Assembly: GCF_003586445.1 (NCBI RefSeq)
Contig: NZ_CP030028.1
Span: forward strand, 3,734,501-3,798,500
From: Bacillus sp. Y1
Lineage (GTDB): Bacteria > Bacillota > Bacilli > Bacillales > Cytobacillaceae
Direction: 5' to 3'
DNA: 64,000 nt
Part shown: positions 50,030 to 64,000 of the stretch, one piece after another
Layout of the letters: every line of letters starts with the position of its first letter
Position numbering within the stretch: the stretch's first letter is position 1
The notes under the pieces: generated by a model
The model's input: only the letters and a program-made list of their open reading frames with translations
Databases searched by the model: none
Told to the model about the DNA's origin: nothing
Made by a program: the position numbers and the translations under genes

Positions 50030-51247
50030 TTATTCTGCTTTGTTTTCTTTTAAATCCTCTGCTAACTGATCAATACTTTGACGAACATTTCCTTTACCCG
50101 CAAATGTTTCAAGTAAGTTTTTCACATCAATTCCAGAAGACGCCTTCAAGGTTTCCTGTAATGAAGACATCAAGTTGGTAGCGTAACCTGTCACTTTATT
50201 GGCTCCGCCTCCTTCACCACCACCTGTATCAACAACGGTGATTTTATCAATATTGGAAAGTGGACTTGCAATTTCCTTCGCGTACTCCGGCAACATTCTC
50301 ACAATCATGTCCATCACAGCTGCTTGGCCGTACATTTCAAACGCTTCTGCAATTTTACGCTTCGCTTCTGCTTCAGCTAGCCCTTTCAGGCGAATGATTT
50401 CTGCTTCTGCTTCCCCTTGAGCTCGCTCAGACTCCGCTTTAGCTAGACCATCCAGTCGTACCTTTTCAGCATCCGCTTTTGCCATCGCTTCAATTCGATA
50501 TTTATTCGCATCGGCTTCAGCTAATTGTCTTGCCTTGTCTGCTGCAGCTGCTTGTTCAACCGCATAACGATCCGCATCGGCTTTCTTCTTAACCTCTGAG
50601 TCATACTGTCTTTCTCTACGCTGAATTTCTTTCTCTTCTAGTTCAATTTGCTTTTGACGCTCGATAATTTTGATTTGCATTTCATGCTCTGTAACTTCTT
50701 GCTTTGCTCTTGCCGTTTCAAGATCATACGCTTGGTCAGCACGTGCTTTCGCTATATCCTGTTCACGACGATACTCAGCAATTTTCATTTGATTCACTTT
50801 TTCTGCCTCAGCAATTTCTGTGGCTCTTTCAAGCTCTGCCTTCTGTGCGTCTTTCGCTGCTTCCGCCCGCTTAATTCGTGTTTCTTTTTCTGCCTCTGCA
50901 GTCGCAATGTCTGCATCTCTTTTTACCTGGGCAATTCTTGGCTTACCTAATGAATCCAAGTATCCGTTTTTGTCTCTAACATCCTTGATTGTAAACGATA
51001 CAATTACTAGTCCCATTTTTGCTAAATCTTGTGATGCTACTCTTTGTACTTCTTGAGAGAACTTATCTCGATTTTTGTAAATTTCCTCTACAGTCATTGA
51101 GCCGAGGATTGAACGTAGATGTCCTTCTAAGACTTCCTTCGCTTCGTTTTCTCGGTCTTCCTTCGCTTTCCCTAAAAACTGCTCTGCCGCAGTTGCAATT
51201 TCTTCGATGGATCCCCCAATCTTAATAATCGCTACTCCATCAGCCAT
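50030..51247 (-). CDS. floT: Flotillin floT, C-terminal part of an interrupted gene
   Basis: 405 residues matching FloT (YuaG) from its MADG motif to the end: the second half of the SPFH/PHB domain (IIKIGGSIEEIATAAEQFLG, SMTVEEIYKNRDKFSQEV), the long EA/KA-rich coiled coil (about 100-310), and the C-terminal NKVTGYATNLMSSLQE. The N-terminal membrane anchor and first half of SPFH, about 100 residues, are missing. Upstream codons continue in frame as GVPV (as in intact FloT) and then diverge at the recombinase gene. So an element has inserted within floT. A GAGGGG sequence by chance lies 8 nt before the ATG, so a truncated protein could be made. FloT organises membrane microdomains. Confidence 0.9.
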   Translation of the reverse strand: MADGVAIIKIGGSIEEIATAAEQFLGKAKEDRENEAKEVLEGHLRSILGSMTVEEIYKNRDKFSQEVQRVASQDLAKMGLVIVSFTIKDVRDKNGYLDSLGKPRIAQVKRDADIATAEAEKETRIKRAEAAKDAQKAELERATEIAEAEKVNQMKIAEYRREQDIAKARADQAYDLETARAKQEVTEHEMQIKIIERQKQIELEEKEIQRRERQYDSEVKKKADADRYAVEQAAAADKARQLAEADANKYRIEAMAKADAEKVRLDGLAKAESERAQGEAEAEIIRLKGLAEAEAKRKIAEAFEMYGQAAVMDMIVRMLPEYAKEIASPLSNIDKITVVDTGGGEGGGANKVTGYATNLMSSLQETLKASSGIDVKNLLETFAGKGNVRQSIDQLAEDLKENKAE

Positions 51248-51285
51248 AACAGGTACCCCTCTACTAACAGTGTAGAACGTTGATA
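51248..51285. other. Element-chromosome junction (attL/attR half) in floT
   Basis: Between floT codons (GVPV encoded through GGGGTACCTGTT, 51248-51259) and the recombinase stop codon at 51286 lies the junction. FloT-like sequence is recognisable up to GGGGTACC; beyond it (51261 onward) the sequence is not flotillin. A weak inverted repeat CTAC...GTAG (51261-51264 with 51272-51275) is present. The exact crossover cannot be fixed without the partner end. Confidence 0.65.
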
Positions 51286-52878
51286 TTACTGGCTTTCTAA
51301 ATCCTCAAATCTATAATATATATCTATTTCTGCGTTTTCATGAACAATGATCTTGTTTATTAAATTTAATAAATCGTACCTTTTTTCTTCTATTGTCTTT
51401 GAAGGATAACTAATGATTCCTTTGATGTTATTTTTAAACTTTTCAATCTTATCGTCAGAGTCATTTGTTTCCAACATCTTTAACTCGATTTCCTCAAGCG
51501 TTTCAGACAATGAGTTAAGCCTCTCAGAATACTTCGCGTTCATAACTTTGTACTGTCGATCGTCTATGTCCCCGGTCATATTCTTTTCCAGAAGCTTCTC
51601 CATTAAATTTGTTACCTTAATAATTTCTTTATCGACTTCATTTCGCTCTTTTTCGTAACCGTCGCTCACTTTCGGTAACTTCGATTTGTGTTGATGGAAT
51701 AACGCATTAAGCTTCGCTTTATTTTTAGCCAGCTCAGTTAAGTCATCCAAGATAATAGTCTCCAACTCGTCCGCCCCGACATGGTGCGAAGTACAATACT
51801 GCTTTCCGTACCTTATATAATTCATACAGTAGTAATTGTCTTTCGTTACGACATGTCCAAGGTGATTCTTACGACCTCGCTTAAAAGTCATCCCACTTCC
51901 GCATTTTCCGCAAACAGCGATACCAGCGAACAACGATACATTATTCCGGATACCCTTACGCTTAGCCTTCGTTTCCATCATTTCTTGAACTCTACCGAAT
52001 GCCTCTCGTTCTATAATCGCCGGATGCGCGTTCTCCGTAATAATCCAAGCGTCCCTGTCGTTATAATCGTTACCTACGTATACGTCGTCCGAAGTCTTGC
52101 CTATTAGTGCAGGCTGTTTGTACGGTCGCTCCTTTTTGCTACGTTTATTGTAGACGATATTTCCGATATATACTTCGTTCTTTAAAATAAATCCGATTGT
52201 ATATTCGCTCCACCTTTTTGATCTTGGCGACAGATACTTTTTACCTTCGGTATTATCTCCGTTTAAATAATGCGCAATTGACTTCATTCCCATGCCGTTT
52301 TTATAAAGGTCGAATATCATCTTCACTATCGTTGCATTTGCGTGGTCAATCTCGAGCTTCTTAGTCGTTGAATTGTACGAATACCCAAACGGTACACTCG
52401 ACGCTTGATTCCATTCGCCAGCATGCGCTTTTTCAATCTGCGTATATTTAATACGATCCGCTAGTTTCTTCGATTCCATTTCGGAAAACATTAAATACAT
52501 TGTAATACGCGACAGGTCCAACTTATTCGTGCTCGTCCGATGTTCTTGCGAATCAAACATTTCTTCTACGGTAATAACACGAATACCACTTCGGTCGAGT
52601 TTCTTAATTAACCCAAGTCCTTTTTCAGTATCGCGATAAAGACGTGAGATCCCTTTCATTATTACGCATTCATACTTACCATTAATCGCGTCTTCAATTA
52701 GCTCTTTTACTTCTGGACGGTTTAAGTCATCTGTACCTGTAGCTGAGTCAGTTTTAATATCTACGATTTCCAGTCCGTTGTCTTGAGCATAACGTTTGCA
52801 TATTTTAATTTGGTTCTCAATGGTTTCTTTTTGCCCTAGTTTTTTCGTCGACTTACGTGCGTATATTGCCGCTTTCAT
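51286..52878 (-). CDS. Large serine recombinase (integrase)
   Basis: 530 residues. N-terminal resolvase domain (1-145) with catalytic Ser10 in YARKSTKK and the Arg cluster KGISRLYRD; recombinase domain (about 160-270); zinc ribbon with Cys323, Cys326, Cys351 and Cys362; a coiled coil (about 400-480) as in phage integrases. ATG follows TTAGGAGTGATAAA. Its stop codon is less than 40 bp from the floT junction, the usual place for an integrase next to its att site. It should integrate the element into floT and, with a directionality factor, excise it. It has its own promoter (52911-52939). Confidence 0.95.
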   Translation of the reverse strand: MKAAIYARKSTKKLGQKETIENQIKICKRYAQDNGLEIVDIKTDSATGTDDLNRPEVKELIEDAINGKYECVIMKGISRLYRDTEKGLGLIKKLDRSGIRVITVEEMFDSQEHRTSTNKLDLSRITMYLMFSEMESKKLADRIKYTQIEKAHAGEWNQASSVPFGYSYNSTTKKLEIDHANATIVKMIFDLYKNGMGMKSIAHYLNGDNTEGKKYLSPRSKRWSEYTIGFILKNEVYIGNIVYNKRSKKERPYKQPALIGKTSDDVYVGNDYNDRDAWIITENAHPAIIEREAFGRVQEMMETKAKRKGIRNNVSLFAGIAVCGKCGSGMTFKRGRKNHLGHVVTKDNYYCMNYIRYGKQYCTSHHVGADELETIILDDLTELAKNKAKLNALFHQHKSKLPKVSDGYEKERNEVDKEIIKVTNLMEKLLEKNMTGDIDDRQYKVMNAKYSERLNSLSETLEEIELKMLETNDSDDKIEKFKNNIKGIISYPSKTIEEKRYDLLNLINKIIVHENAEIDIYYRFEDLESQ

Positions 52879-52910
52879 TTTATCACTCCTAATAAAAAGA
52901 ACCTTCCACT

Positions 52911-52939
52911 ATTATAATGGAGGTCTCTGTTAAGTGTAA
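52911..52939 (-). promoter_or_regulatory. Recombinase promoter with overlapping palindrome
   Basis: On the minus strand TTACAC (52934-52939), 17-bp spacer, TATAAT (52911-52916). The imperfect palindrome CCATTATAATAGTGG (52906-52920) covers the -10, a likely repressor site. Confidence 0.5.
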
Positions 52940-52940
52940 A

Positions 52941-53075
52941 CTATTTACTTTTTTCTAACAATAACGCTACCTCTTTTTGAAGGTAATCTTCAAATTTAAA
53001 TTCACCCAAGAATACGCGCTTTCTAATTTTTATTTTTGGCGTTTCAGATTTCGCTGTTGCCGCAGCTTTCTCCAT
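52941..53075 (-). CDS. Small basic protein (44 aa), possible directionality factor
   Basis: 44 codons from ATG (53073-53075) to TAG (52941-52943), with ribosome site AGAGGTGAGCGGGA. The product is lysine rich, with a basic patch KIKIRKRVFLGEFKFEDYLQ and a leucine-rich helix at the end. It is immediately upstream of the recombinase gene, on the same strand. Small basic proteins in this position often act as recombination directionality factors for serine integrases, but there is no homology I can name; that role is inference. The rest of the 349-bp stretch 52879-53227 holds the promoter of the recombinase, a palindrome and a terminator. Confidence 0.5.
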   Translation of the reverse strand: MEKAAATAKSETPKIKIRKRVFLGEFKFEDYLQKEVALLLEKSK

Positions 53076-53104
53076 TCCCGCTCACCTCTGTAGTATTTAC
53101 GTAC

Positions 53105-53118
53105 AGGACAGTTGTCCT
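53105..53118. promoter_or_regulatory. Palindromic operator candidate AGGACA-GT-TGTCCT
   Basis: 6-2-6 perfect inverted repeat about 30 bp upstream of the 44-aa gene start, in the region where its promoter should be. Candidate element repressor site. Confidence 0.4.
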
Positions 53119-53206
53119 ATTACTTTATTTAACGCACGAAGAAGAATTTTCGCGCATCCTATACTTACATTGACGCGTGAGTTTTTAATTTCGGACAAAA
53201 AAAATA

Positions 53207-53228
53207 ACGGCATGCCTCCGCACACCGT
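53207..53228 (-). terminator. Terminator of the yolD-like gene
   Basis: 8-bp stem allowing two G-U pairs (53207-53214 with 53221-53228) followed on the minus strand by TATTTTTTTT. It overlaps the yolD-like stop. Confidence 0.65.
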
Positions 53229-53545
53229 CAATCAACGACTTCCACCGCAATCACATCCGCCATATTAATCCGCGTATCAGCCAGCCGCACCTGCTTAGCG
53301 TTCACATCTACGTAATGCACTCGCCCCACCACTTCGGCAGTTTTACCCGCTTCCCATATCGTAAACTTAATCGGCAACGCGTACTCCATTGCGTAACATA
53401 TCCGCTCATCAAATTCCGCCATCTGATATTCGTCGACGATCGGCTTTTTGACGAAGTTGTATTCCGTATTTAACTCGCGCAATAGTTCGGTGTGTTCTGT
53501 CATGAAAAATCCTTGCCATTTCTTCGTACCGCGGTCTTTAATCAT
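53228..53545 (-). CDS. YolD-like family protein
   Basis: 105 residues. Matches the YolD-like family: DRGTKKWQGFFMTEHTELLR at the start, then KKPIVDEYQMAEFDERI, and a beta-rich end with GRVHYVDVNAKQVRLADTR. YolD-like genes in Bacillus phages and chromosomes usually pair with Y-family polymerase (uvrX/yqjW) genes and are SOS induced. No polymerase partner is seen here. ATG follows GAGGTGAGCGT. The promoter carries a LexA-type box in its spacer, so it should be DNA-damage induced. Confidence 0.88.
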   Translation of the reverse strand: MIKDRGTKKWQGFFMTEHTELLRELNTEYNFVKKPIVDEYQMAEFDERICYAMEYALPIKFTIWEAGKTAEVVGRVHYVDVNAKQVRLADTRINMADVIAVEVVD

Positions 53546-53574
53546 ACGCTCACCTCGTTCGTATTTATGACGTT

Positions 53575-53603
53575 ATTATACCCGAACGTACGTTCTTTTA
53601 CAA
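53575..53603 (-). promoter_or_regulatory. SOS promoter of the yolD-like gene with LexA box
   Basis: Minus strand TTGTAA (53598-53603), exact 17-bp spacer, TATAAT (53575-53580). The spacer contains the palindrome GAACGTACGTTC; in the wider site CGAACGTACGTTCT (53583-53596) 13 of 14 bases fit the Bacillus LexA consensus CGAACRNRYGTTYG. Confidence 0.75.
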
Positions 53604-53615
53604 AATAAAAAATAA

Positions 53616-53635
53616 AACGCCGATTACTTGGCGTT
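53616..53635 (-). terminator. Rho-independent terminator of the HNH-like gene
   Basis: AACGCC/GGCGTT stem (53616-53621 with 53630-53635) followed by TTATTTTTTATTTT on the minus strand. Confidence 0.7.
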
Positions 53636-53652
53636 AAAATTAGTATTGAACC

Positions 53653-54504
53653 CTAACTAATATTCTTGTATCCATTATCTCGCAACGATTTACTCGTAGC
53701 TTCTTCAATCGTCCAACCTCTCGATAGTCTTTTATATAAAACACTGTATCTTATCCCGCATTTATCCGATATTTGGGAAAGTGTATATTTTCCACCCTCG
53801 AAGTCATAATATTTATTCCGTCTAGTATTGTTTGATTGTTCTTTTTGTGTTATCCATCTACAATTACTTGGTTCATAATTTCCATTTACATCAATCCTGT
53901 CGAGTGTTAACCCTTCTCTATACCCTTTGTCAATCGCCCACCAATAGAATAAAGTAAAATCACTCCTCCAATCTTTATCTACACAGATCCCACGCTCGCC
54001 ATAATACGGATAACTATCACTATTAGGGTTATGACATCTTTCTTTCATTCCTACCCAAATCTGATAAATTTTTGTTTTAGATAAACCGTGAGTGGTATTG
54101 GCTTTAGACGCATTCTCTCTTTGCGCACATCCGCAACTTGTTGTAGAACCGTTTCTTAAAGATGCTCCTCTTACTGTGGTTTCGTTACCACACTCGCAAA
54201 CACATTTCCACAGGGCTAATTTTGACCTACCAGAAACATGTGTCCCATCTCTACAAATAACTTTTAATTTACCAAAACTCATTCCAGTCATGTCCTTAGA
54301 AAATCTCTTTTTTGCTTCGCTATTTTTATAACACCCACAACTTATTACAGTTCCATTTATTAACGAGCTTCCAACGAATGCTTTAGTGGTCCCGCATTCG
54401 CATCTACATAACCAAGTAGCTTTTCTGTGATTATTCAGCCCTTCAAATTGTAGCACTTCTAGCCGACCGAATTTCTTTCCAACGATACTATTGACTTTTC
54501 CCAA
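53653..54504 (-). CDS. HNH/AP2-like phage protein with two zinc modules
   Basis: 283 residues. Two related N-terminal modules (about 8-58 and 73-126), each beginning G-x-x-FG-x-L-x-V and containing a CxC..C...C.C cysteine set (WLCRCECG...ISCGC and WKCVCECG...TSCGC), look like zinc ribbons. The C-terminal part has the HNH-type TLDRIDVNGNYEPSNCRW block followed by TQKEQSNNTR, common in free-standing phage homing endonucleases. The last ~50 residues resemble a DNA-reading HTH. TTG start behind AAGGAGGAGTTAAG. More AT-rich than the genes upstream, so perhaps a later insertion. Function inferred. Confidence 0.75.
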   Translation of the reverse strand: MGKVNSIVGKKFGRLEVLQFEGLNNHRKATWLCRCECGTTKAFVGSSLINGTVISCGCYKNSEAKKRFSKDMTGMSFGKLKVICRDGTHVSGRSKLALWKCVCECGNETTVRGASLRNGSTTSCGCAQRENASKANTTHGLSKTKIYQIWVGMKERCHNPNSDSYPYYGERGICVDKDWRSDFTLFYWWAIDKGYREGLTLDRIDVNGNYEPSNCRWITQKEQSNNTRRNKYYDFEGGKYTLSQISDKCGIRYSVLYKRLSRGWTIEEATSKSLRDNGYKNIS

Positions 54505-54652
54505 CTTAACTCCTCCTTATTTTCGAGATTTTGCCTTCAACAGATAATACATCCGATAAAGTTAACTTCGGACATCTCCATCCAGCAATACCCACAATAT
54601 AAATGACGCGCGAAGGAATAAAATCGGACAGCTAATCATAAAAATAAGCGCC

Positions 54653-57028
54653 TTAATTGGCGCCTGATTGTATTTGTTTAATTCTATCTTCAACCCTTCC
54701 AGGTAATTTTGTTATAAAACGCGCATACCCTTCGCGAGATTTGACGTAGTTCATAGAATAATACGGCTTCATATTCGCCAAGTCTTCCTCGGTGAAGGGA
54801 TAAAGCTCCGACCGTAGCTCGGAATAATTATCGCGATCGCATCCGGCAATCAACATATATGACGTATTGGCCGACCGCAATTCCCTCCGCATGTGCTTCA
54901 ACTGATTAATGTAGTGGCACGATATAATAGGTTTACAAATAAACTTCGCGATTTGCGATAGCTTCGTCGTCATAAACTTTTCCGTATTCTCAACCTGGTA
55001 GATTTCGTCGATAACGAGGTTTACTTTGCGCCGTTGCTTTTTATCGCGAATCTTATCCGCACGAATCTGTAGCGCTAACCATATCTTCGTAATCCAATAC
55101 GTCGTACAAATATCGCGCTCGCCTTGCGTTGGAAATTTCGATTCGGGCATCCGTATGCAAATAACTTGGCTCCGTTGCATCTCCTCGACTAAATCGATAT
55201 TGTTGTCGATATCCGTTTTCAGCATCATTTCCATTTGCGTATTGCGTTTGAGCACCGAAAGCCTATCGATAATACCGACGATAAGATTCAGTTTGGTTCC
55301 GATAATTACACCATCCTTCTTCTCGTCAAGTTCGGTCAGTGATGTCATGTATTCCTCCATATACTCGTATTGTGACTTCGGTACTTTTGCGAGGAAATGA
55401 TGGCGCGATTCGTGGTTCTGTAGTACGTGAAATACATCGCGAATGCTACCCGTATTGACGAATACGCAAAGGCTGGCCGCCTCCAAGTAACGCTCCATTT
55501 TCGCAGACAGTCGACTTTCATCGACGTTAATTGCATTTACTAGCGCTAGCAAGTTCGCCGTTTGTCGCTTGGCATTTTCGTAACGCTGGAACGGATCCTC
55601 AGCGATACCTACCTCGTTATAACCGAGGCCCTGTATTTTCGACGGGTCGCTATTGTCAATGTTGAGCACTTGATCAGCCGGAAACAGCGCCGCAATGTCA
55701 TCGCTCAGTTCGCAGTTTTCGATAAAGTCGAAGATAATCACGCACTCGCCCGCCTGTATCGCGTCAATGCTCAGGTTTCCGATAAGGTTCGATTTACCTG
55801 CGCGAGTCGGTCCGATTAGCAGCGTCAGCAAATTCCGGTAATGTTCGTAGTTACTCAAATACGCCTTTTGCTTCGTACCTCTAAACGTACTCTCACCGAT
55901 ACACATCGTTCCCGTCCGTAAATCCTCCGGCACCTGCGCCTCTTGCGTTTCTACCTTTTCGATAAAGTTGTGGCGCTCGAGCAATTCGCGTCCAGCCAAC
56001 GATAGAAAGTTCTGCGCTTCTAAGTCGCCTACCTTGTTCACTTCCGCGCCACTTATCGAATAGTCCGTATACTTAACCGGCTTCTTTAACCTCTTTGCCA
56101 CTAGCCGATTGTCACCCGCCACCGCATCGAAACTCTGCGCCATGCTCCGTGCATTATTCGCCTGCCTCAGCCGGTCATCCGATTCGCTCATGACGACAAT
56201 CTGTGTATTTAGTACGGCAGCGCTCGCCTTTTTGACCGTAGCCTCGTCGATTTTCTTGCCGCCGTTTAAGCGCTCTAACAAGCCCTCTAGGACGTTGTAA
56301 TCGTCCACCTTACCTTTACCCTTGCCGTCATTTAACGCGCCTCCTATGTCGTCTATAAGCGTTGAAATCACGCCAACAGCCGTCTTTAGTGCATAACTCA
56401 ATCCGTACTTATTTCGGTCAACAGGCAGATTGCGCTTGACCTTCCGTATAGTCGCTTCGTACTTGCTCCGCCAGGTAAATTGCGTCGTCGGCATGAAGTT
56501 GTAAAACACGCCAACCTTATCGCCTTCCTCGAGGACATCAACTACGTTCAGCTTCGAGTTGAGCAAGTCATTATCGCGCCGATCAATCGCAAGGCTGAGC
56601 GCATCTTCCTTCGTATAAGATAGCTGATACTGGACGGCGTTATTGCTGAACTCCGGCAACGCTTCGACTTCCTTGACGGTCACATTCGTCCAGACGTCCG
56701 ACATACGCTCTTTAATAATCGATAGGAAATGTCGCGGAATGATGAAGTAGAACTCGGCGCGCTTCTTTTCGACGTAAATGTAATACGACACTTTTGACGG
56801 CACGGCGATTGAATACTTTGTTCCGAATAAGAATTCGCGCCCGAGCACCTTCAGCAACTTCGCTTCCTCGCGTTTGATGTTTTGCGCTAAGTTTCGATAC
56901 AGCGACGCAATGGTTCGCGCTAGCTTATGCGTATTGTTATTTCGAATGGAATTGTTCGGAGTTAGGCGCAAGTATACGTACTCCGGCTTGATGACGTTAA
57001 TATATTCCGATAACTTTATCGACTTCAT
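54653..57028 (-). CDS. VirB4/HerA-type secretion ATPase
   Basis: 791 residues. The N-terminal half (about 1-380) has no motif I recognise. P-loop ATPase domain: Walker A GPTRAGKS at 406-413, an acidic strand VIIFDFIE, Walker B LVIDEIYQVEN near 672, and a C-terminal sensor/arginine region (SCHYINQLKHMRREL). This is the pattern of VirB4/TraU-HerA ATPases that power type IV secretion, rather than FtsK. The ATG lies 1 nt after the M23 gene stop, with its ribosome site GGGGTG in that gene, so translation is coupled. Neither a VirD4 coupling protein nor a relaxase is seen in the window. Notably richer in G+C than the host genes. Confidence 0.82.
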   Translation of the reverse strand: MKSIKLSEYINVIKPEYVYLRLTPNNSIRNNNTHKLARTIASLYRNLAQNIKREEAKLLKVLGREFLFGTKYSIAVPSKVSYYIYVEKKRAEFYFIIPRHFLSIIKERMSDVWTNVTVKEVEALPEFSNNAVQYQLSYTKEDALSLAIDRRDNDLLNSKLNVVDVLEEGDKVGVFYNFMPTTQFTWRSKYEATIRKVKRNLPVDRNKYGLSYALKTAVGVISTLIDDIGGALNDGKGKGKVDDYNVLEGLLERLNGGKKIDEATVKKASAAVLNTQIVVMSESDDRLRQANNARSMAQSFDAVAGDNRLVAKRLKKPVKYTDYSISGAEVNKVGDLEAQNFLSLAGRELLERHNFIEKVETQEAQVPEDLRTGTMCIGESTFRGTKQKAYLSNYEHYRNLLTLLIGPTRAGKSNLIGNLSIDAIQAGECVIIFDFIENCELSDDIAALFPADQVLNIDNSDPSKIQGLGYNEVGIAEDPFQRYENAKRQTANLLALVNAINVDESRLSAKMERYLEAASLCVFVNTGSIRDVFHVLQNHESRHHFLAKVPKSQYEYMEEYMTSLTELDEKKDGVIIGTKLNLIVGIIDRLSVLKRNTQMEMMLKTDIDNNIDLVEEMQRSQVICIRMPESKFPTQGERDICTTYWITKIWLALQIRADKIRDKKQRRKVNLVIDEIYQVENTEKFMTTKLSQIAKFICKPIISCHYINQLKHMRRELRSANTSYMLIAGCDRDNYSELRSELYPFTEEDLANMKPYYSMNYVKSREGYARFITKLPGRVEDRIKQIQSGAN

Positions 57029-57029
57029 T

Positions 57030-57659
57030 TCAATACACCCCGAATAAAAATTTAATTAATACGTTCGCAACGAGTAGCATTCCGGCGTACCTTCCGCCGT
57101 CTCGCCAGCCAGCGACTTTCAACACTATCAGCACCGCAGTCCCTACGAGCGTGCCCGCTAGCAAGAAATCCTTCAGCGCATCGAATATGCCGAGAATGAT
57201 TTCGGTGGCTACGTCCGCAGTCTTGTCGCGAACCGTTTCGCCAAAGAGTGTCGGAATCAAGCCCGGCTGTACTTCGCCACTGATTTCCGCTAACTTTTCA
57301 GCGAGTGGAGTCGGATCCATTACGTGACCGCCTGCGTCCCTCATACCGAAATGTAAGTGCGCACCGGTCGAGTGCCCCGTATTTCCGCTGAGCCCAATAA
57401 CCGCGCCCGCATCGATATGTTCGCCGACTTTCGCCTGGACTTCGTTCATATGTCCGTAGATAGCCCGTGTGCCGTCCGGAAACTTTATTGACAAGCCTTT
57501 ACCGATGGCGTCCGTTCCATCAAAGACTCGGTCGACTACGCCTTCACCAATCGCACGGAGCGTCGTGTTTTCGGGAATGGCGAGGTCGATTCCGCTGTGT
57601 GGCTTCCAGTTTCGAACCGGTGACAACTCGCCGTATTCCGCAGATAATCGAAACTTCAT
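57030..57659 (-). CDS. M23 peptidase with C-terminal membrane anchors
   Basis: 209 residues. LytM-type zinc site complete: His21 and Asp25 in PHSGIDLA, His101 and His103 in AHLHFG, and YGHMNEV. Two hydrophobic segments follow (about 158-180 and 190-208). There is no N-terminal signal peptide, unlike usual cell-wall M23 enzymes. It probably cleaves peptidoglycan cross-bridges to let a secretion channel or virion structure through the wall. ATG follows GGAGGTAACGACG. Sits between the VirB2-like and VirB4-like genes. Confidence 0.88.
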   Translation of the reverse strand: MKFRLSAEYGELSPVRNWKPHSGIDLAIPENTTLRAIGEGVVDRVFDGTDAIGKGLSIKFPDGTRAIYGHMNEVQAKVGEHIDAGAVIGLSGNTGHSTGAHLHFGMRDAGGHVMDPTPLAEKLAEISGEVQPGLIPTLFGETVRDKTADVATEIILGIFDALKDFLLAGTLVGTAVLIVLKVAGWRDGGRYAGMLLVANVLIKFLFGVY

Positions 57660-57671
57660 CGTCGTTACCTC

Positions 57672-58079
57672 CTATACGTCCGCCGTTAAATCTTTGAATA
57701 TCGTATCGATTTCATCCATCGCCCAAGGCAATCCGAATAAGAAGATATAGACGAGGATATACGAAATGAATCCTTTCTTCGCCGAATCGAAATCGCCTCC
57801 CGCCATATTCTTAATCGTATCGAATCCGCCCTTGAAGATAATCACCCACTTACCTATCGACAATAGTTTCGCGTATAACTTCTGCGCGCCCACTTCGATA
57901 CTCTCGCCTGCAGCAAACGCATAATCAAATCCGCCACCCGCTACGATAATCACAATCGTCGAGCCAACGATTTTATAAACGATGCCATATTTCCGAAAAT
58001 GCCTTTCGAATTTCGTTTCCGTTGGCTCGGGACGACCGTGTAAAAAGTCCTTGATACTCATGCGCTCATATTTACTCAT
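57672..58079 (-). CDS. VirB2/TrbC-like small membrane protein
   Basis: 135 residues from ATG (58077-58079) after AGGAGGTAATACGAAAA. A charged N-terminus (to about 30) is followed by three hydrophobic segments; the last two flank a NMAGGDFDSAKKGFISYI loop, which resembles the GD..AK.G signature of VirB2/TrbC pilin-like proteins. Ends acidic. It is 12 bp upstream of the M23 gene. The VirB2 likeness is by pattern only; other membrane components of transfer systems are possible. Confidence 0.6.
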   Translation of the reverse strand: MSKYERMSIKDFLHGRPEPTETKFERHFRKYGIVYKIVGSTIVIIVAGGGFDYAFAAGESIEVGAQKLYAKLLSIGKWVIIFKGGFDTIKNMAGGDFDSAKKGFISYILVYIFLFGLPWAMDEIDTIFKDLTADV

Positions 58080-58176
58080 TTTTCGTATTACCTCCTGTTG
58101 TACGTGCATAATTTCGGCATGGCTCGCATAAGCTGACGATAGACCAACGTCAGCGACTTGGGCGACCTCCACGCAT

Positions 58177-58383
58177 CTAGAGAAAGCTATCGACGACCGC
58201 CCGTTTCGCCTGACTTGGCGCCTTTACTACCGCCTGCACGCCGCCTTCCTTGTCTCGCTGTATGAGTCTTTTGATATACTTCGAAAATGCTCCGTTGCTT
58301 ACCGCATAATCGTAGAGCTCCTTCTCGAATCGATCCGTTAGATTGAACGACACCGGCTGTACTTTTCGGCTACTTGCTTCCAT
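58177..58383 (-). CDS. Ribbon-helix-helix DNA-binding protein (ParR candidate)
   Basis: 68 residues. Beta-strand QPVSFNLTDR then helices FEKELYDYAVSN and FSKYIKRLIQRDKEG match a ribbon-helix-helix fold. The start overlaps the actin-like gene by 14 bp, the typical parM-parR arrangement, so it is most likely the centromere-binding adaptor that also represses the operon. ATG follows GCGAGGGGTCATT. Confidence 0.72.
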   Translation of the reverse strand: MEASSRKVQPVSFNLTDRFEKELYDYAVSNGAFSKYIKRLIQRDKEGGVQAVVKAPSQAKRAVVDSFL

Positions 58384-59209
58384 AATGACCCCTCGCTATC
58401 TCGTAAAATCCCGCTGCATTGGCGTAGGTTGGACCAACGAACGTCATTGCGCTATGTCCTTTCGGCACCATCGGCTTCATGACCGCTACGTTCCCGAAGT
58501 ATTTCCGCAGTAACGGCGCCATCACTTCCGCCATGCCTCCGCACACCCTTACACAATCTCCTTTCGCCCATCGCTTGCTTGCATTTGCGATAATCGCGTC
58601 GACTAATCGTTCCACGTCGTAACTTTCCGCCGAGTTAGCGCCGAATGCCAACGTCCATGAATCGCGATCATTGAAGCGACCATCGACCACTGTTGCGCAA
58701 TTGACTGTCGCACTCCCTACGTCAACTATCCGCACTTTCGATTCACCGCCCCGATACGCCACATATGCGCCAGCTCCTTCGGGCGCGACCGCTACATTTC
58801 GAATCGTAAACGTCTTCGTTACGCCGTTCACCGTAATCGTGTGCTTGCCACGCAACATTTCGACGATGCGCGATTTATCCGCCTTGTGTCGACGGATAGG
58901 CTGACCGACGATAATGTCGTGCTCGAGGTCGGATGCGTAACGGTGGATGCCGATTAATATTCGTAGCACCGCGTCCTCATGCGCTTTGGTATCGCCAGCC
59001 ATTTCGCGAATGAACAGCGACTCCTTTTCGGCGAGCGTGCCCGCAAACCCCTTCGTTCCTTTATATTCGTAAATGATGTCATCGTCTGTTAGTGCGCCCG
59101 TGTCGAGGTTGAATTCGCGCCACTCGCCGAGGCAAGAGCGAAATTTGAATGCGCCGTGAGCTGTGACGAGCTTTGATTCGTAGTTGCCCGCGTCAATTCC
59201 GATAATCAT
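58370..59209 (-). CDS. ParM/Alp-type actin-like ATPase
   Basis: 279 residues with the actin-fold nucleotide motifs: phosphate 1 IGIDAGNYESKL (3-14), phosphate 2 IVDVGSATVNCATV (161-174), and adenosine motif VRVCGGMAEVMAPLL (221-235). Shorter than R1 ParM (320), within range of Gram-positive plasmid actins. Such filaments push plasmid copies apart. ATG follows AAGGAGGCGGTCAT. First gene of a minus-strand run: actin, RHH, VirB2-like, M23, VirB4-like. Repeats upstream resemble parC. Confidence 0.85.
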   Translation of the reverse strand: MIIGIDAGNYESKLVTAHGAFKFRSCLGEWREFNLDTGALTDDDIIYEYKGTKGFAGTLAEKESLFIREMAGDTKAHEDAVLRILIGIHRYASDLEHDIIVGQPIRRHKADKSRIVEMLRGKHTITVNGVTKTFTIRNVAVAPEGAGAYVAYRGGESKVRIVDVGSATVNCATVVDGRFNDRDSWTLAFGANSAESYDVERLVDAIIANASKRWAKGDCVRVCGGMAEVMAPLLRKYFGNVAVMKPMVPKGHSAMTFVGPTYANAAGFYEIARGHYGSK

Positions 59210-59227
59210 ATGACCGCCTCCTTATTC

Positions 59228-59277
59228 GTATTACATCGGTAATACCGACTTGCTTGCCGGTGTTACGTTTGTAATAC
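59228..59277. repeat. Paired 7-4-7 inverted repeats (parC-like / operator)
   Basis: Site 1 GTATTACatcgGTAATAC (59228-59245) is a perfect inverted repeat; site 2 GTGTTACgtttGTAATAC (59260-59277) differs at one arm base. Their starts are 32 bp apart, three helical turns. They lie just upstream of the ribosome site of the actin-like gene, where parC sites of plasmid parMRC loci sit, and in the divergent gap with an HTH regulator gene. Confidence 0.65.
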
Positions 59278-59372
59278 ATCTATATGGGCGTCTGATTGTC
59301 CGTGATACCGATTTTTTGCAAAAGTTTAAAAAATTGATAACGTGGACATACTGATTGCCGAGGTGATGCGGA

Positions 59373-59603
59373 GTGGACTGGTTTAATCTCGGTAAAAAAC
59401 GTAGCAAATTCGGGAAGTTTATAGATAAGGAAGGAATTTCGCAGACGGAATTACGAAAGAAGACGAAGTTAGGGCACGGAACGGTTACGTCCTTGTGCAA
59501 CGATAAGGATTACGTGCCGAAGATTTCGACGTGGGTAAAGGTACAGCGCGCGCTGAAGTCGATGGGCTACGACGTGGATCGCAAAGATTACTTCGATATG
59601 TAG
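59373..59603 (+). CDS. XRE-like helix-turn-helix protein
   Basis: 76 residues. HTH at about 20-50: ISQTELRKKTKLGHGTVTSL. C-terminal half has VKVQRALKSMGYDVDRKDYF. GTG start behind GAGGTGATGCGGA. Small phage-repressor size; it is divergent from the actin-like operon and may bind the repeats in the shared 163-bp gap, either in place of or alongside the RHH protein. Confidence 0.75.
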   Translation: MDWFNLGKKRSKFGKFIDKEGISQTELRKKTKLGHGTVTSLCNDKDYVPKISTWVKVQRALKSMGYDVDRKDYFDM

Positions 59604-59613
59604 AAACACAAAA

Positions 59614-59655
59614 AGCGCCCCAACCGCGCGTGTCGCTTGCGAGGTCAGGGCGTTT
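59614..59655. terminator. Hairpin between convergent genes
   Basis: AAAGCGCCC (59612-59620) pairs with GGGCGTTT (59648-59655) with one bulge, with further internal pairing. It lies between the HTH gene and the 93-aa membrane protein gene. Confidence 0.45.
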
Positions 59656-59657
59656 AA

Positions 59658-59939
59658 TTATGCGCGTTTACTAATTTCCGATAAGCTCTTGCGCTGGTCG
59701 TTTGATAACTCTTCGATTAATTCGATTATTTTGCCGAGGCCAACAAGCACAAGTCCGAAGAATGCCGAAGATAGAATCGTGCCGAAACCGTAAGCCCAGC
59801 GCAATGGATGAGGATCGTCGTAAAGAAACCCTTCCGTTAAGCCTGGCGTATAAATTTTCATGGTGCCTCCGAGATAAAGACCGACAATCGCTCCGACTAT
59901 TAAAATCGTATACCCTACATACTTGATAATTAACGTCAT
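59658..59939 (-). CDS. Small membrane protein (93 aa)
   Basis: Two membrane spans (about 6-26 and 48-70) and a charged C-terminal tail (LIEELSNDQRKSLSEISKR). ATG follows GGAGGCGGTTGGC. No family recognised. It sits among phage-like regulators; holin-like topology is possible but unsupported. Confidence 0.6.
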   Translation of the reverse strand: MTLIIKYVGYTILIVGAIVGLYLGGTMKIYTPGLTEGFLYDDPHPLRWAYGFGTILSSAFFGLVLVGLGKIIELIEELSNDQRKSLSEISKRA

Positions 59940-60098
59940 GCCAACCGCCTCCGTTTTCCGATTATTTTAAATTTTACCGTATATTACCTATGTATGCAAG
60001 GACGGGCATAAGTATGCGTAATTATTTCGTTTATATTTTCGGTAACTTTTCGTCGGTAAGCGCATATACTTTCGTATAAACAACAAGGAGGCAACACG

Positions 60099-60311
60099 AT
60101 GGAAAAATTAGCGCAATATTTATTAACGACATGCTCCGAAACTGAGGCGCGTTTCATGCTTGACGGAATGACGGCGAAAGAATTGAAGGAGTTGGCGAAG
60201 GAGATGGCGGTGATAACGCGAGGCAAGAATAAGAAGGAAATCGTTGATAAGATCGTGCAGGTTGCGATTACGAATCGGATTGCGATGAAGCAATTGCGCG
60301 AAAGAGCGTAA
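60099..60311 (+). CDS. Small helical protein with SAP/Rho-N-like fold (70 aa)
   Basis: 70 residues, basic. The segment MTAKELKELAKEMAVITRG then KNKKEIVDKIVQ has the helix-loop-helix pattern of SAP or Rho N-terminal DNA/RNA-binding domains. ATG follows AAGGAGGCAACACG. A palindrome TATAC-TTTC-GTATA (60065-60078) lies just upstream in the promoter region. Terminator at 60345. Possibly a nucleic-acid-binding regulator of the element. Confidence 0.65.
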   Translation: MEKLAQYLLTTCSETEARFMLDGMTAKELKELAKEMAVITRGKNKKEIVDKIVQVAITNRIAMKQLRERA

Positions 60312-60344
60312 TGTCACTATCTTTTACAAGAGCGTAATAAGATT

Positions 60345-60375
60345 GCCCTCCTTCGTGATGAAAGAGGGCTGTTTT
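60345..60375 (+). terminator. Rho-independent terminator of the SAP-like gene
   Basis: GCCCTC/GAGGGC stem (60345-60350 with 60364-60369) with inner TTC/GAA pairing, then TGTTTTT. Confidence 0.7.
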
Positions 60376-60908
60376 TATGCGTATAAATGTACCGATTCTT
60401 TTTCAAGCGACCTGATTTCTCTAGCCGGAACACCAGCGTATAATGTGTTCGGTTTACATTCATTGGTTACGACTGATCCCGCAGCAATAACACATCCATC
60501 CCCGATTGTCACGCCAGGAAGAATTGTAGCCCTCGCCCCGATCCAACAACCTCTCCCGATTGTGACTGGTTTTCTATCAGATTCCCCAGCTCGCTTAAAT
60601 GAATCACCAATTTTATGACTAGATGTACAAATCAAAACATCAAAGGCAACTGCTGTGTTTTCTTTAATAATAACCTTTTCCCAGCCATCGATAAAAACAT
60701 TGTGGTTAAGGAATACCCCTTTCTCAAGAAAGATACTCTTTCCTCTGAAGGTGCAACCTGAGCGAATATTAGTGGTAGCTGTATTCATTCCAGCAAATCT
60801 ATATAGTGTGTATCTTATCTTCTTAGGTACAAGTATTGATTTACCGATAACGTTGACCATTAAATTCCAAACTAATTCGGATAACTTAATCTTTATCTTT
60901 AGTAACAT
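60375..60908 (-). CDS. Hexapeptide-repeat acyltransferase
   Basis: 177 residues of left-handed beta-helix type: isoleucine/valine-spaced hexapeptides (GKSIFLEKGVFLNHNVFI, TIGRGCWIGARATILPGVTI) and the conserved end GDGCVIAAGSVVTNECKPNT then YAGVPAREI, as in WcaF/NodL/CatB O-acetyltransferases. The catalytic His is probably in TSSHKIGD. Likely acetylates a sugar. In a phage-like element this suggests modification of cell-wall or surface polymers of the host. ATG follows GGGAGGGGTTTT. AT-rich, like the downstream chromosome. Confidence 0.85.
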   Translation of the reverse strand: MLLKIKIKLSELVWNLMVNVIGKSILVPKKIRYTLYRFAGMNTATTNIRSGCTFRGKSIFLEKGVFLNHNVFIDGWEKVIIKENTAVAFDVLICTSSHKIGDSFKRAGESDRKPVTIGRGCWIGARATILPGVTIGDGCVIAAGSVVTNECKPNTLYAGVPAREIRSLEKESVHLYA

Positions 60909-60959
60909 AAAACCCCTCCCGTTTAATGAATATTCTACAAGAGGGGAATAATGTCCTTT

Positions 60960-62249
60960 TTATAATTCTGATACATTAAACTTATACCCTTTGTAATCCG
61001 TATAAGCATATACTTCATTGTTATAAACCGCGATTCCCTGTATATCTCCAGTAGCGCCAACTAAAGGGATATATTCGCTGTCAAAATAGCCGTTATTTAA
61101 AAGAATACATTTCCGAATATTATTAGAACCTTTTACCCCAGTGTAAATAAATCCTTTGTAAAAAAACATTCCACCTAAGATATCATCCGTTCTCGACACC
61201 CAAGTGTTGAGAATTGAATAACTTCCGTTATATCGATCACTTGCTGTCCCGGTTATGAATGTGCCTAAACCTTTGTTATCTGTACCCTTTCCTAATAAAA
61301 CCTTTCTAATAATGCGATTATCATTGGTAAATAGATAAACGATATCAGAAGATTCATAGCCCCAGCATAATTGCCCCTTATACTCACCTGTTAACTGAGT
61401 AAAGTCTAATTCAATTTTATCGACTGTATTAAACTCTAAGACACTACCGTTTACTAATTTGGACTTAAAGTTAGGAATAATCCATCCTTTAGGTAGTAAA
61501 GCGTAGTCCTTTGATCCATTTCCAACTATAAAACTGTCTTTTACATGAGAGTAATTTGGTGCGTTTAAGTGACCAAAGTTATGTGTCATACTAAAGCCTG
61601 TGCTACTTATCGTTGCGTAATCAGTGTGAAGGTCATTTGAATGAATACACTTATATACGGTCCCGTCCACAATGAATATACCTTGAGTAGATCCAGTTGA
61701 AGAAATTTCAGCACCTTCTATTTCCCTAACAGGTATTGACAAAGAATCCTCGCCCATTACACAATACTTGCTAAGGATTCCTCCGATATTACCTAAGTTG
61801 TTATATAGCAATAAATATTCATTGGCTGTTAGTGAAACGTTCCCCCAAGTTCCATTCTTTGTAGATAGGGTATTAGTAGATACATTGTAGATTAAAGCAT
61901 CATTATCCAACAAAGTCCCATCAGGGATGTCTACCCATTTAAGGGAAGCTCCAGATGTCCAAACAAACAATCTTCTATATCTATTAGTGTCGAGTGTTGG
62001 AAATGTGTAATTTACTGTACTGTCATCTGTGTTTTTTCGAGCGTTTATCATTGCGCCCCTTAGAGAAAACATAGTGTACCCTCTACCACTTACTGATACT
62101 TCAGTTGTTCCACCACTTCCACCTAAGCTTCCGTCTTCAATTGCCTGTTTTAATGTTTTGTTGGACTCTACAAAAACACCCTCCGCAACCGTTACCGGAA
62201 AAGCATATTTACCTGTATTATCTTTTAATTTTTTAATTTTACCTTGCAA
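60960..62249 (-). CDS. Phage tail-fibre-like protein
   Basis: 429 residues. The N-terminus GKYAFPVTVAEGVFVESNKT then LKQAIEDG resembles the short trimerising segments that begin many Firmicute phage tail-fibre/baseplate proteins; a glycine linker (SLGGSGGTT) follows. The remaining ~370 residues are beta-rich with repeated aromatic strands (DIVYLFTNDNRI, GFIYTGVKGSNNIR, AVYNNEVYAYTDYKGY), suggesting a beta-propeller-like receptor-binding head. TTG start behind GGAGGTGATTCGAA. It follows the 575-aa protein by 15 bp and is likely co-transcribed. Confidence 0.68.
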   Translation of the reverse strand: MQGKIKKLKDNTGKYAFPVTVAEGVFVESNKTLKQAIEDGSLGGSGGTTEVSVSGRGYTMFSLRGAMINARKNTDDSTVNYTFPTLDTNRYRRLFVWTSGASLKWVDIPDGTLLDNDALIYNVSTNTLSTKNGTWGNVSLTANEYLLLYNNLGNIGGILSKYCVMGEDSLSIPVREIEGAEISSTGSTQGIFIVDGTVYKCIHSNDLHTDYATISSTGFSMTHNFGHLNAPNYSHVKDSFIVGNGSKDYALLPKGWIIPNFKSKLVNGSVLEFNTVDKIELDFTQLTGEYKGQLCWGYESSDIVYLFTNDNRIIRKVLLGKGTDNKGLGTFITGTASDRYNGSYSILNTWVSRTDDILGGMFFYKGFIYTGVKGSNNIRKCILLNNGYFDSEYIPLVGATGDIQGIAVYNNEVYAYTDYKGYKFNVSEL

Positions 62250-62264
62250 TTCGAATCACCTCCG

Positions 62265-64000
62265 TTAAATGTAGTAAATTTTGATGTTCGCAGCAGTTAA
62301 ATACGCACTGACACCAGCTACATCTATGCTTGCAAGTGTACCCTTAGGTAATAACATTTCCATTGTTCCATCTGCATTAATTCGCAGATTTTTAAAAGTT
62401 TTACTAAATACATAATCTGCAGTAGGTGAAACTATATATCCGTTTGAAGCAAAGAACTTGTTAGCTACAGTCGTGGTAGGTATATAGTCTCCAATTCCAT
62501 CATTTAGAACAAACTTAACATACTCAAAGTTAACAGTGTCTACGTTCGTGGTTCTTGTTGTAACAGTCGAGATATTAGAAGAAATGTTCAAAGTCTTATA
62601 ACCACTTGCTAACTTTACAGATAACTTTTTATCAGTGTTCTGGAGATACGTATTTAAAGTGGCTGAATCTGCTCCTCTGGATGTAGAAAGTTTAATAGCC
62701 ATTTTCCCAGCGTTAGAACCTGTAGCGATAGAAACGTTTTCGTTATAATCAACTGTATGAGTCGCAGAATAAGTGACAAATGGTAAATTATCGAATTTAA
62801 AAGGATCTGGTAGCGATTGATCAAATAAAGCTGTTAATGCAACGGTTGCAGCCATTCTTATATAACTTGCATCAGATTGACCTGTTAAGGCAGCCCATGT
62901 ATATTGACTTGGAGGCATTACTAAATAGCCGTTTTCTGGATAAACAATATTATAATTTATCGCTGTCTGCTTCGTATAAGTCACCGTCTGTACCGCACTA
63001 GCATTATTCGCACTATCCACCGCATAAGCTTTGACCGTAGTAGTGGCTGTCAACGTTACCGCAGTCGTATATTGAACTCGTGTGCCTGACGTTGTTGGGT
63101 CGCTACCATCAACCGTATACCAAATCGTAGCCGTTTCATTTGCGCTCATTGTTACGGTTTGCGTATCGCTAAAGGTTGCTGCAGGAGTAATCGTTAATGT
63201 TGGTGCTGTCGTATCCGGAAGGTTAATCGTATAAGTCGCAGCGACTGGCGTACTTTGGTTGCCCGCAGTATCACGTGCAATAAACTGAAGCGTAGTAGTC
63301 GCGCTAATACTAATCGGTCCGCTATACACCGTGCTCGATGTCGTAGGAGTTGTACCGTTGGTAGTATAGTAGATCGTCGCAGTCTCATTCGCCGTCAAAG
63401 TAACGGACTGAGCCGACGTATAAGTACCCGCTGCCGGCGATGCTGTGACTGTAGGTGCTGTCGTATCCGCCGGCGCACTTACATCCTTCGTAAATGTGAC
63501 CGTCTGTACAGCCGAACTGTTGCCCGACGTATCCCTTGCGAAAGCCTTTAACGTTGTAGTAGCGCTTAGTGACAATGGCGCCAAATACTGCGTGCTGCTT
63601 GTCGTAGGTGTCGATCCGTCAAGCGTATAATAAATCGTGGCTGTTTCGTTCGTTGTCAACGTTACGCCTTGAGTGCTTGCGAAGTTGCCTCCGTTCGGGC
63701 TAATCGTAAGCACTGGCGCCGTTGTGTCGGTCGGTGGCGTTGTGTTTGTGTCGATTATAACCGTTTCGCCTTCCGTCCAATCTTCGAAAAGGATTACGTT
63801 GGATGGCACGGAACCACCACCGCCAGGACTCTGCTCCAACACGGCGACCTTCTGCTTTAAATCGTCGATATTAACGAATATTTCTTGCACTAGCGACAGA
63901 TTACCCGTTTCGTCCGTAATCTCGCCCGTACCAATATCCGGCTTAATTTGAATGCCGAACGGACTAGTCGAATAACGCTCCGTATTATCCACGCTATAAA
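62265..64000 (-). CDS. Phage-like surface/tail protein with three chitobiase-type repeats (5' end may be outside)
   Basis: At least 575 residues from a GTG at 63992; the frame remains open to the window edge and no ribosome site is visible, so the true start may be off the edge. N-terminal segment with SPFGIQIKPDIGTGEITDET and VNIDDLKQKVAVLE (short coiled coil), then a T/P linker, then three ~82-residue repeats (about 90-169, 176-257, 260-341), each starting DTTAP and carrying NETATIYYT-like and D/NGSTPTTS blocks of the CHB_HEX_C family. The C-terminal 230 residues are beta-rich and unassigned. Probably a carbohydrate-binding tail or adhesion protein. Confidence 0.72.
   Translation of the reverse strand, partial: YSVDNTERYSTSPFGIQIKPDIGTGEITDETGNLSLVQEIFVNIDDLKQKVAVLEQSPGGGGSVPSNVILFEDWTEGETVIIDTNTTPPTDTTAPVLTISPNGGNFASTQGVTLTTNETATIYYTLDGSTPTTSSTQYLAPLSLSATTTLKAFARDTSGNSSAVQTVTFTKDVSAPADTTAPTVTASPAAGTYTSAQSVTLTANETATIYYTTNGTTPTTSSTVYSGPISISATTTLQFIARDTAGNQSTPVAATYTINLPDTTAPTLTITPAATFSDTQTVTMSANETATIWYTVDGSDPTTSGTRVQYTTAVTLTATTTVKAYAVDSANNASAVQTVTYTKQTAINYNIVYPENGYLVMPPSQYTWAALTGQSDASYIRMAATVALTALFDQSLPDPFKFDNLPFVTYSATHTVDYNENVSIATGSNAGKMAIKLSTSRGADSATLNTYLQNTDKKLSVKLASGYKTLNISSNISTVTTRTTNVDTVNFEYVKFVLNDGIGDYIPTTTVANKFFASNGYIVSPTADYVFSKTFKNLRINADGTMEMLLPKGTLASIDVAGVSAYLTAANIKIYYI

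Follow-up and report, generated by a model that had tools for sequence, protein, structure and literature searches.

The flotillin gene floT of Bacillus sp. Y1 is split by a large insert, one end of which lies in the 64,000-nucleotide stretch of DNA analysed here (the window; G000:C1:3734501-3798500 of a single-contig genome of 5,028,825 bp). The insert is very probably a temperate arbitrium-type siphophage that was integrated by its serine integrase at a fixed bacterial attachment site (attB) within floT. An earlier sequence-only reading of the window had proposed that this gene is interrupted by a mobile element carrying a large serine integrase, and both gene halves, fitting attachment (att) sites and a 530-amino-acid (aa) integrase at the 3' junction were found. 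The event itself is of a known, ordinary kind; floT is a new attachment gene, and a reused one. Flotillin, a much studied membrane organiser, hereby joins the protein genes that serve as phage attachment sites in these bacteria. The features at the window end of the insert, with open reading frame abbreviated as ORF, are:

50030..51254, minus strand: 3' part of floT (host), made up of the ORF M101-505 at 50030-51247 and the last host bases up to the core
51255..51260, minus strand: att core AGGGGT (ACCCCT on the plus strand), common to the far junction at G000:C1:3853726-3853731
51261..51277, minus strand: phage half of the 3' junction (TTCTACACTGTTAGTAG), whose outer arm, 51268-51277, is an inverted repeat of the far-junction arm
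51286..52878, minus strand: large serine integrase, 530 aa, with Resolvase (PF00239), Recombinase (PF07508) and Zn_ribbon_recom (PF13408) above cut-off and a match to phrog_95 (E 2.6e-103)
52911..52940, minus strand: promoter-like site for the integrase, TTTACA-18-TATAAT, of vegetative type with 11/12 consensus bases
51255..64000, no strand assigned: the part of the prophage inside the window, which continues to G000:C1:3853731

The 3' ORF of floT (50030-51247, minus strand) encodes 405 aa from M101 with the Pfam domains Band_7 and Flot. The in-frame sequence preceding it reads ...SRGVPVMADG; host DNA therefore begins within GVPVMADG, and the attachment site falls inside the Val98 codon. The 5' codons of floT had been predicted to lie at the far end of the element, and a whole-genome search located residues 3-101 there, 68 kb away on the same strand (G000:C1:3853713-3854009). 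The ORF at this end comprises 100 codons (G000:C1:3853716-3854018, minus strand) and ends with ...EVYTEQGVPC-stop; of this, G97 and the opening two bases of V98 lie within the shared core, and what follows is phage sequence. The 5' half of floT thus runs into the phage directly past the core. An intact copy elsewhere had been named as the finding that would count against a split; beyond the two halves no further floT copy was found in the whole-genome search, leaving the assembled genome without an intact floT. The gene for the related FloA, floA, is present.

All four other same-genus genomes searched (G001-G004, of which G002 is only 66% complete) carry a continuous floT, with one open frame of 507 codons that is 99-100% identical to the Y1 3' part. 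In the G001 locus, bases through 2296 align to the left flank of Y1 and those from 2287 onward to its right flank; because the two alignments overlap by 10 bp at the junction, no part of the Y1 gene is missing. Given the continuous gene in these four genomes and the alignment of the Y1 flanks to G001 on both sides, the split is not a matter of chance. More widely, floT was matched in 76 of 101 genomes searched at E 0.001 (Y1 included) and in 176 of 193 family genomes at E 1e-15, with some of the 17 lacking a match being incomplete assemblies.

Read along the floT strand, the 3' junction is TTCTACACTGTTAGTAGAGGGGT followed by ACCTGTTATG and the 5' junction is CAGAACAAGGGGT followed by TCCTTGTTAATCAGTGTAGAA, with AGGGGT common to both and 67,971 bp separating the two cores. 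A direct repeat had been expected at both ends; the 6-bp AGGGGT repeat is indeed shared, but where GGGGTACC was anticipated the far end reads GGGGTTCC. The dinucleotide GT at the dyad centre (51255-51256) supplies codon positions 1 and 2 of Val98. The phage arms, TTCTACACTG and CAGTGTAGAA, are inverted repeats, and the two Y1 half-sites pair at 14 of 22 positions. In viral contig L018, which encodes an 85% identical integrase, both half-sites adjoin as a free phage attachment site (attP), equal to those of Y1 at 20 of 22 bases (3' junction, core bases included) and 19 of 22 bases. Dyad pairing within the free attP extends to 12 of 22 positions in L018 and 13 of 22 in L019, a degree of pairing that mononucleotide shuffles attained 18 and 2 times, respectively, in 20,000.

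GT also occupies the dyad centre in L019 (58% integrase identity) and, counted by eye, in the junctions of Aquibacillus saliphilus (described below) and in L045 (56%). Among integrase clade members at 56% identity or above, GGNGTNCC was present at the dyad centre in all five wholly readable att sites (Y1, L018, L019, L045 and Aquibacillus, the last two again by eye), a count that omits L020, which ends inside the att site and equals L019 in its readable part, and L044, which breaks off at the stop codon of the integrase. In floT, GGNGTNCC coincides with the Gly97-Val98-Pro99 codons, the wobble positions of the first two being its two N. The variability of the core may reflect this codon wobble, although the GG..CC pattern would also be favoured by dyad symmetry. 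Integration into floT itself was seen in two of the five cases, Y1 and Aquibacillus. A search of IMG/VR for floT fragments at provirus edges found none.

The integrase adjoins the 3' junction: its gene stops 38 bp short of the floT ATG, with 25 bp between it and the core. It has the hallmarks of a phage large serine integrase, namely three domains in a protein of ~500 aa and a dyad-armed attP with a short core shared by the two prophage junctions, attL and attR. The sole other integrase match in the genome is only 28% identical. The promoter scan of the region gave fewer sites than expected (4 against 6.8), and the site upstream of the integrase is judged on its own score and position only. 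At E 1e-60 the integrase clade numbers at least 86 protein clusters, Y1 included, from a search that scored the best 7,997 candidates by word sharing; Peribacillus and Paenibacillus are represented, with integrases 62-66% identical to that of Y1. The integrase is rare in the family, being found in two of 193 genomes at E 1e-60 (Y1, and G029 at 34% identity, with no floT match within 11 kb of the G029 integrase). It was found in one of 397 genomes of the order at E 1e-70 and in two of 398 genomes of the class at E 1e-100, the second of which is taken to be the Ammoniphilus genome again.

A second integration was found in Aquibacillus saliphilus (L016, G574), in which floT residues 18-100, encoded on the opposite strand, come directly after a 62%-identical integrase. 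The gene is split on one contig, with residues 93-489 at C34:56489-57616 and residues 6-101 at C34:199030-199317. The halves are 141 kb apart, and an element of ~141 kb therefore occupies the same codon. The junctions have GGTGTACCCGTA in common and the same kind of arms as in Y1, and attP likewise faces floT, with the integrase gene on the opposite side of attP. Genes for a DnaE-type polymerase and a thymidylate synthase lie by the integrase. The element thus resembles that of Y1 in floT codon, att-arm type and integrase, but is twice the size, has a DnaE-type rather than a family-A polymerase and carries its integrase on the 5' side of floT. From its size, polymerase and integrase position, as read at the ends of the element, it appears to be a different phage. 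The sequence-only reading had proposed searching related genomes for the same insertion; within the genus there was none in the four genomes above, and it is in this more distant relative that the split recurs.

Because the same floT codon is used in Aquibacillus with a 62%-identical integrase, members of the integrase clade use floT as attB. Use of floT therefore appears to be a property of the integrase, in at least several clade members, and not of the Y1 phage in particular, and floT has the appearance of a docking site that phages of this sort use regularly. The site differs in the one case seen at 50% integrase identity, Ammoniphilus resinae, a candidate for another floT integration that was dismissed as its floT is continuous. 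The Ammoniphilus integrase ends beside an opposite-strand trypsin-like protease ORF (L017:7483-7992), and the attachment gene there is probably a different one.

By its gene content the insert appears to be a siphophage-type prophage. A greedy caller returned 100 ORFs of at least 45 aa, 89 of them on the floT strand, covering ~90% of the insert. The gene set of a temperate tailed phage is present, with terminase, portal, capsid (in two frames), tail, lysis, replication and lysis-lysogeny genes. TerL is 74.6% identical to that of Bacillus phage 268TH007, the portal matches phrog_533 (E 1.5e-38), and lysis is represented by an amidase endolysin (PF01520, E 1.4e-43) and a holin (PF04531, E 5.1e-6); tape measure, DnaB, primase, SSB and family-A polymerase were also found. 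AimR was recognised through PF22871 (E 9.3e-32), and several of its homologues are called AimR by their sources. The aimR gene and an aimP candidate lie at L009:6090-7377 (G000:C1:3844089-3845376). The candidate AimP, of 48 aa, overlaps the end of aimR, has a hydrophobic N-terminus and ends in SEKVGG, with relatives ending in INAIGG and DIRPGG.

In the proposed mechanism, the integrase would recombine attP with the floT attB at the Gly97-Val98-Pro99 codons to establish lysogeny, leaving a FloT truncated to 100 codons at one end of the prophage and codons M101-505 at its other end. With floT cut in this way, the lysogen should lack intact FloT and depend on FloA, which suggests the existence of natural FloT-negative lysogens. 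On induction, the integrase together with a directionality factor would excise the phage and rebuild the floT frame without loss or gain of a base. A terminator-like hairpin with a T-run is located just inside the far phage end and faces the floT promoter (L009:15660-15695; -15.7 kcal/mol, z -4.6). The same hairpin recurs in L018 (L018:3365-3415; -12.5, z -2.7), and a consensus terminator scan of the region gave 1 terminator-like site against 1.1 expected. The hairpin may act to insulate the phage genes from floT transcription.

The likeness to SPbeta-type intervening elements drawn in the sequence-only reading holds for the anatomy, a site-specific and frame-restorable split of a coding gene. 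SPbeta in spsM and phi3T in kamA of B. subtilis share with the Y1 insert a serine integrase, a split coding gene, a short core with inverted repeats and an arbitrium system. The target gene is rebuilt upon excision of SPbeta and phi3T, as would be expected in Y1. They differ in target gene, att sequence and genome, which is 128-140 kb against 68 kb (for their integrases, coding-gene insertion, cores, arbitrium and sizes, see PMC8270828 and PMC4191935). Furthermore, no counterpart of the sprB factor or of the mother-cell promoter of SPbeta was identified in Y1. The phages most similar in size are 268TH007, 268TH002, phi18-2 and vB_BauS_KLEB27-1 (64-68 kb), all four with an AimR 27-36% identical to that of Y1 and the first three with a TerL 74-75% identical. 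From 268TH007, 14 of 28 tested proteins match the Y1 insert in the same circular order, one of them over 23 residues only. These include TerL, scaffold, capsid, tape measure, minor tail proteins, helicase loader, DnaB, primase, AimR, a sigma-like protein, SSB and an endonuclease, whereas the other 14, portal, endolysin and holin among them, gave no tblastn match at 1e-3. In 268TH007 and KLEB27-1, aimR is followed by AimP-like peptides with a terminal GG, comparable to the Y1 candidate. In the corresponding region, however, the serine integrase of Y1 is replaced by one of tyrosine type in 268TH007 and by an unspecified integrase in KLEB27-1. A literature search turned up no title or abstract opening that names a floT element, full texts being outside its scope.

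The gin element in gerE of Bacillus cereus ATCC10987 likewise resides inside a gene of a spore former, but is described in PMC5595907 as non-phage with three recombinase genes. It rather recalls floT elements in two other genera of the family, in which floT is split at codon ~94 (G053, L021/L031) and codon ~141 (G027, L023/L024) with the halves on separate contigs. Tyrosine-recombinase-like genes lie beside both 5' halves (G053, phrog_1 E 1.2e-11 and PF00589 E 9.7e-8; G027, phrog_1 E 5.8e-6), and the other G053 half lies beside type I restriction-like genes, named by eye. A multi-piece floT in G050 was rejected as an insertion, being a frame break without an insert. The multi-piece genomes opened, among the matches listed, were Y1, G053, G027 and G050, omitting G206, G214, G230, G138, G039, G033 and some distant two-piece matches. 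In addition, four unannotated Enterococcus/Listeria 'phage' records (OR846627.1, PQ520226.1, OR847422.1 and OR849508.1) contain floT-like DNA of 69-73% identity, probably bacterial DNA.

Several observations weigh against a temperate phage integrated at a fixed floT site. No directionality factor could be named among the four genes by the far junction, which comprise two PHROGs of unknown function and two unmatched genes. The attP pattern derived from the Y1, L018 and L019 sites returned only the L018 and L019 contigs and no independent case; the L045 site, having different arms, could not match it. The major capsid gene (SU10-type, PF17236 in both pieces) is in two frames (L007:13051-14141; G000:C1:3813050-3814140), and the floT halves are undecayed. 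Where the four relatives agree, Y1 floT departs from them in 25 codons among 503; all 25 are synonymous, with no amino-acid change peculiar to Y1, which fits a recent insertion and equally some function retained through excision. The capsid frame break may be a real defect, frameshifting or a sequence or assembly error; this copy may not form particles, and its infectivity is therefore uncertain. A defective, stranded prophage, in which particles are no longer made and floT is lost for good in the lineage, would accommodate the broken capsid gene but is unlikely. Minus-strand ORFs still cover most of the insert, no frame is broken in the terminase, portal, lysis, replication and aimR genes, the capsid break falls in an A-rich run where a sequencing error may have occurred, and floT has not decayed. 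An assembly artefact joining phage DNA to floT, which no observation favoured, is exceedingly improbable given the single-contig genome, the fitting att structure at both ends, the alignment of both flanks with G001 and the same arrangement in Aquibacillus.

Regulated excision was also considered, in which sporulation, stationary phase or envelope stress would release the element and restore floT when FloT is needed, as for SPbeta and spsM. The shared anatomy with SPbeta/spsM and phi3T/kamA, the presence of spo0A in the host, the undecayed floT halves and the reuse of the site in two genera are all in keeping with this. The nfeD-like gene (an assignment that scores below the Pfam cut-off) and floT are preceded by TGAAAC-N16-CGTA, a motif also present in G001 and G004, with one further match of this type in 76 kb, the chance level. 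We take this motif to be a sigma-W-type promoter, behind which floT does not look mother-cell-only. No sigma-E/sigma-K-like motif was found in 2.4-2.8 kb at either end, a weak scan that says little because only 0.015-0.76 matches were expected by chance and the consensus is a presumed one. According to PMC7360373, B. subtilis expresses FloT in the stationary phase, under wall stress and during sporulation; it is thus not mother-cell-specific there, which keeps the idea of regulated excision open. The vegetative type of the integrase promoter does not decide the matter, since sprA of SPbeta is likewise expressed in vegetative growth, with sprB setting the timing (PMC4191935). Against regulated excision, floT seems optional, with the 17 family genomes without a match and floA present, and a recent insertion explains the lack of decay. 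Regulated excision is considered improbable, and integration of an ordinary temperate phage at floT is preferred. Equally doubtful is a broader proposal, that an integrase clade of arbitrium-using and other large phages has adopted flotillin as a reversible switch, with peptide signalling, stress or sporulation setting excision. If true, the phage would control host membrane microdomains and the timing of stress and sporulation responses, and a core varying only at G-V-P wobble positions would allow one and the same integrase to track floT from genus to genus. With a defined integrase, attP and attB now available, the question of phage switching of flotillin can be asked.

The remaining features of the prophage inside the window are:

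53228..53545, minus strand: YolD-like protein (PF08863, E 3.1e-19)
53653..54504, minus strand: HNH endonuclease-like protein (phrog_374, E 2.4e-89)
54653..57028, minus strand: 791-aa phrog_5156 protein, ATPase-like (E 2.6e-88; a PHROG without function, no Pfam match)
57030..57659, minus strand: M23 peptidase (PF01551, E 2.4e-23), C-terminal part hydrophobic by eye
58370..59209, minus strand: ParM/Alp-like actin, partition protein (PF17989, E 1.1e-18; phrog_691, E 5.7e-51)
60375..60908, minus strand: hexapeptide acyltransferase-like protein (PF14602/PF00132), next to tail genes
62265..64000, continuing beyond, minus strand: protein with chitobiase C-terminal and Fn3-associated repeats (PF13290, E 2.2e-62; PF13287, E 5e-45)

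The phrog_5156 protein matched 32 phage records, some of which are annotated as ATPase-like or conjugative DNA transfer proteins. Together with the M23 peptidase, a small familyless protein and the ParM-like actin, it forms a block (54653-59209) between the integrase and the lysis genes, resembling a module for transfer or partition that a temperate phage has come to carry. The acyltransferase-like gene is possibly surface-modifying cargo, and the position of the chitobiase/Fn3-repeat protein points to a tail or baseplate role.

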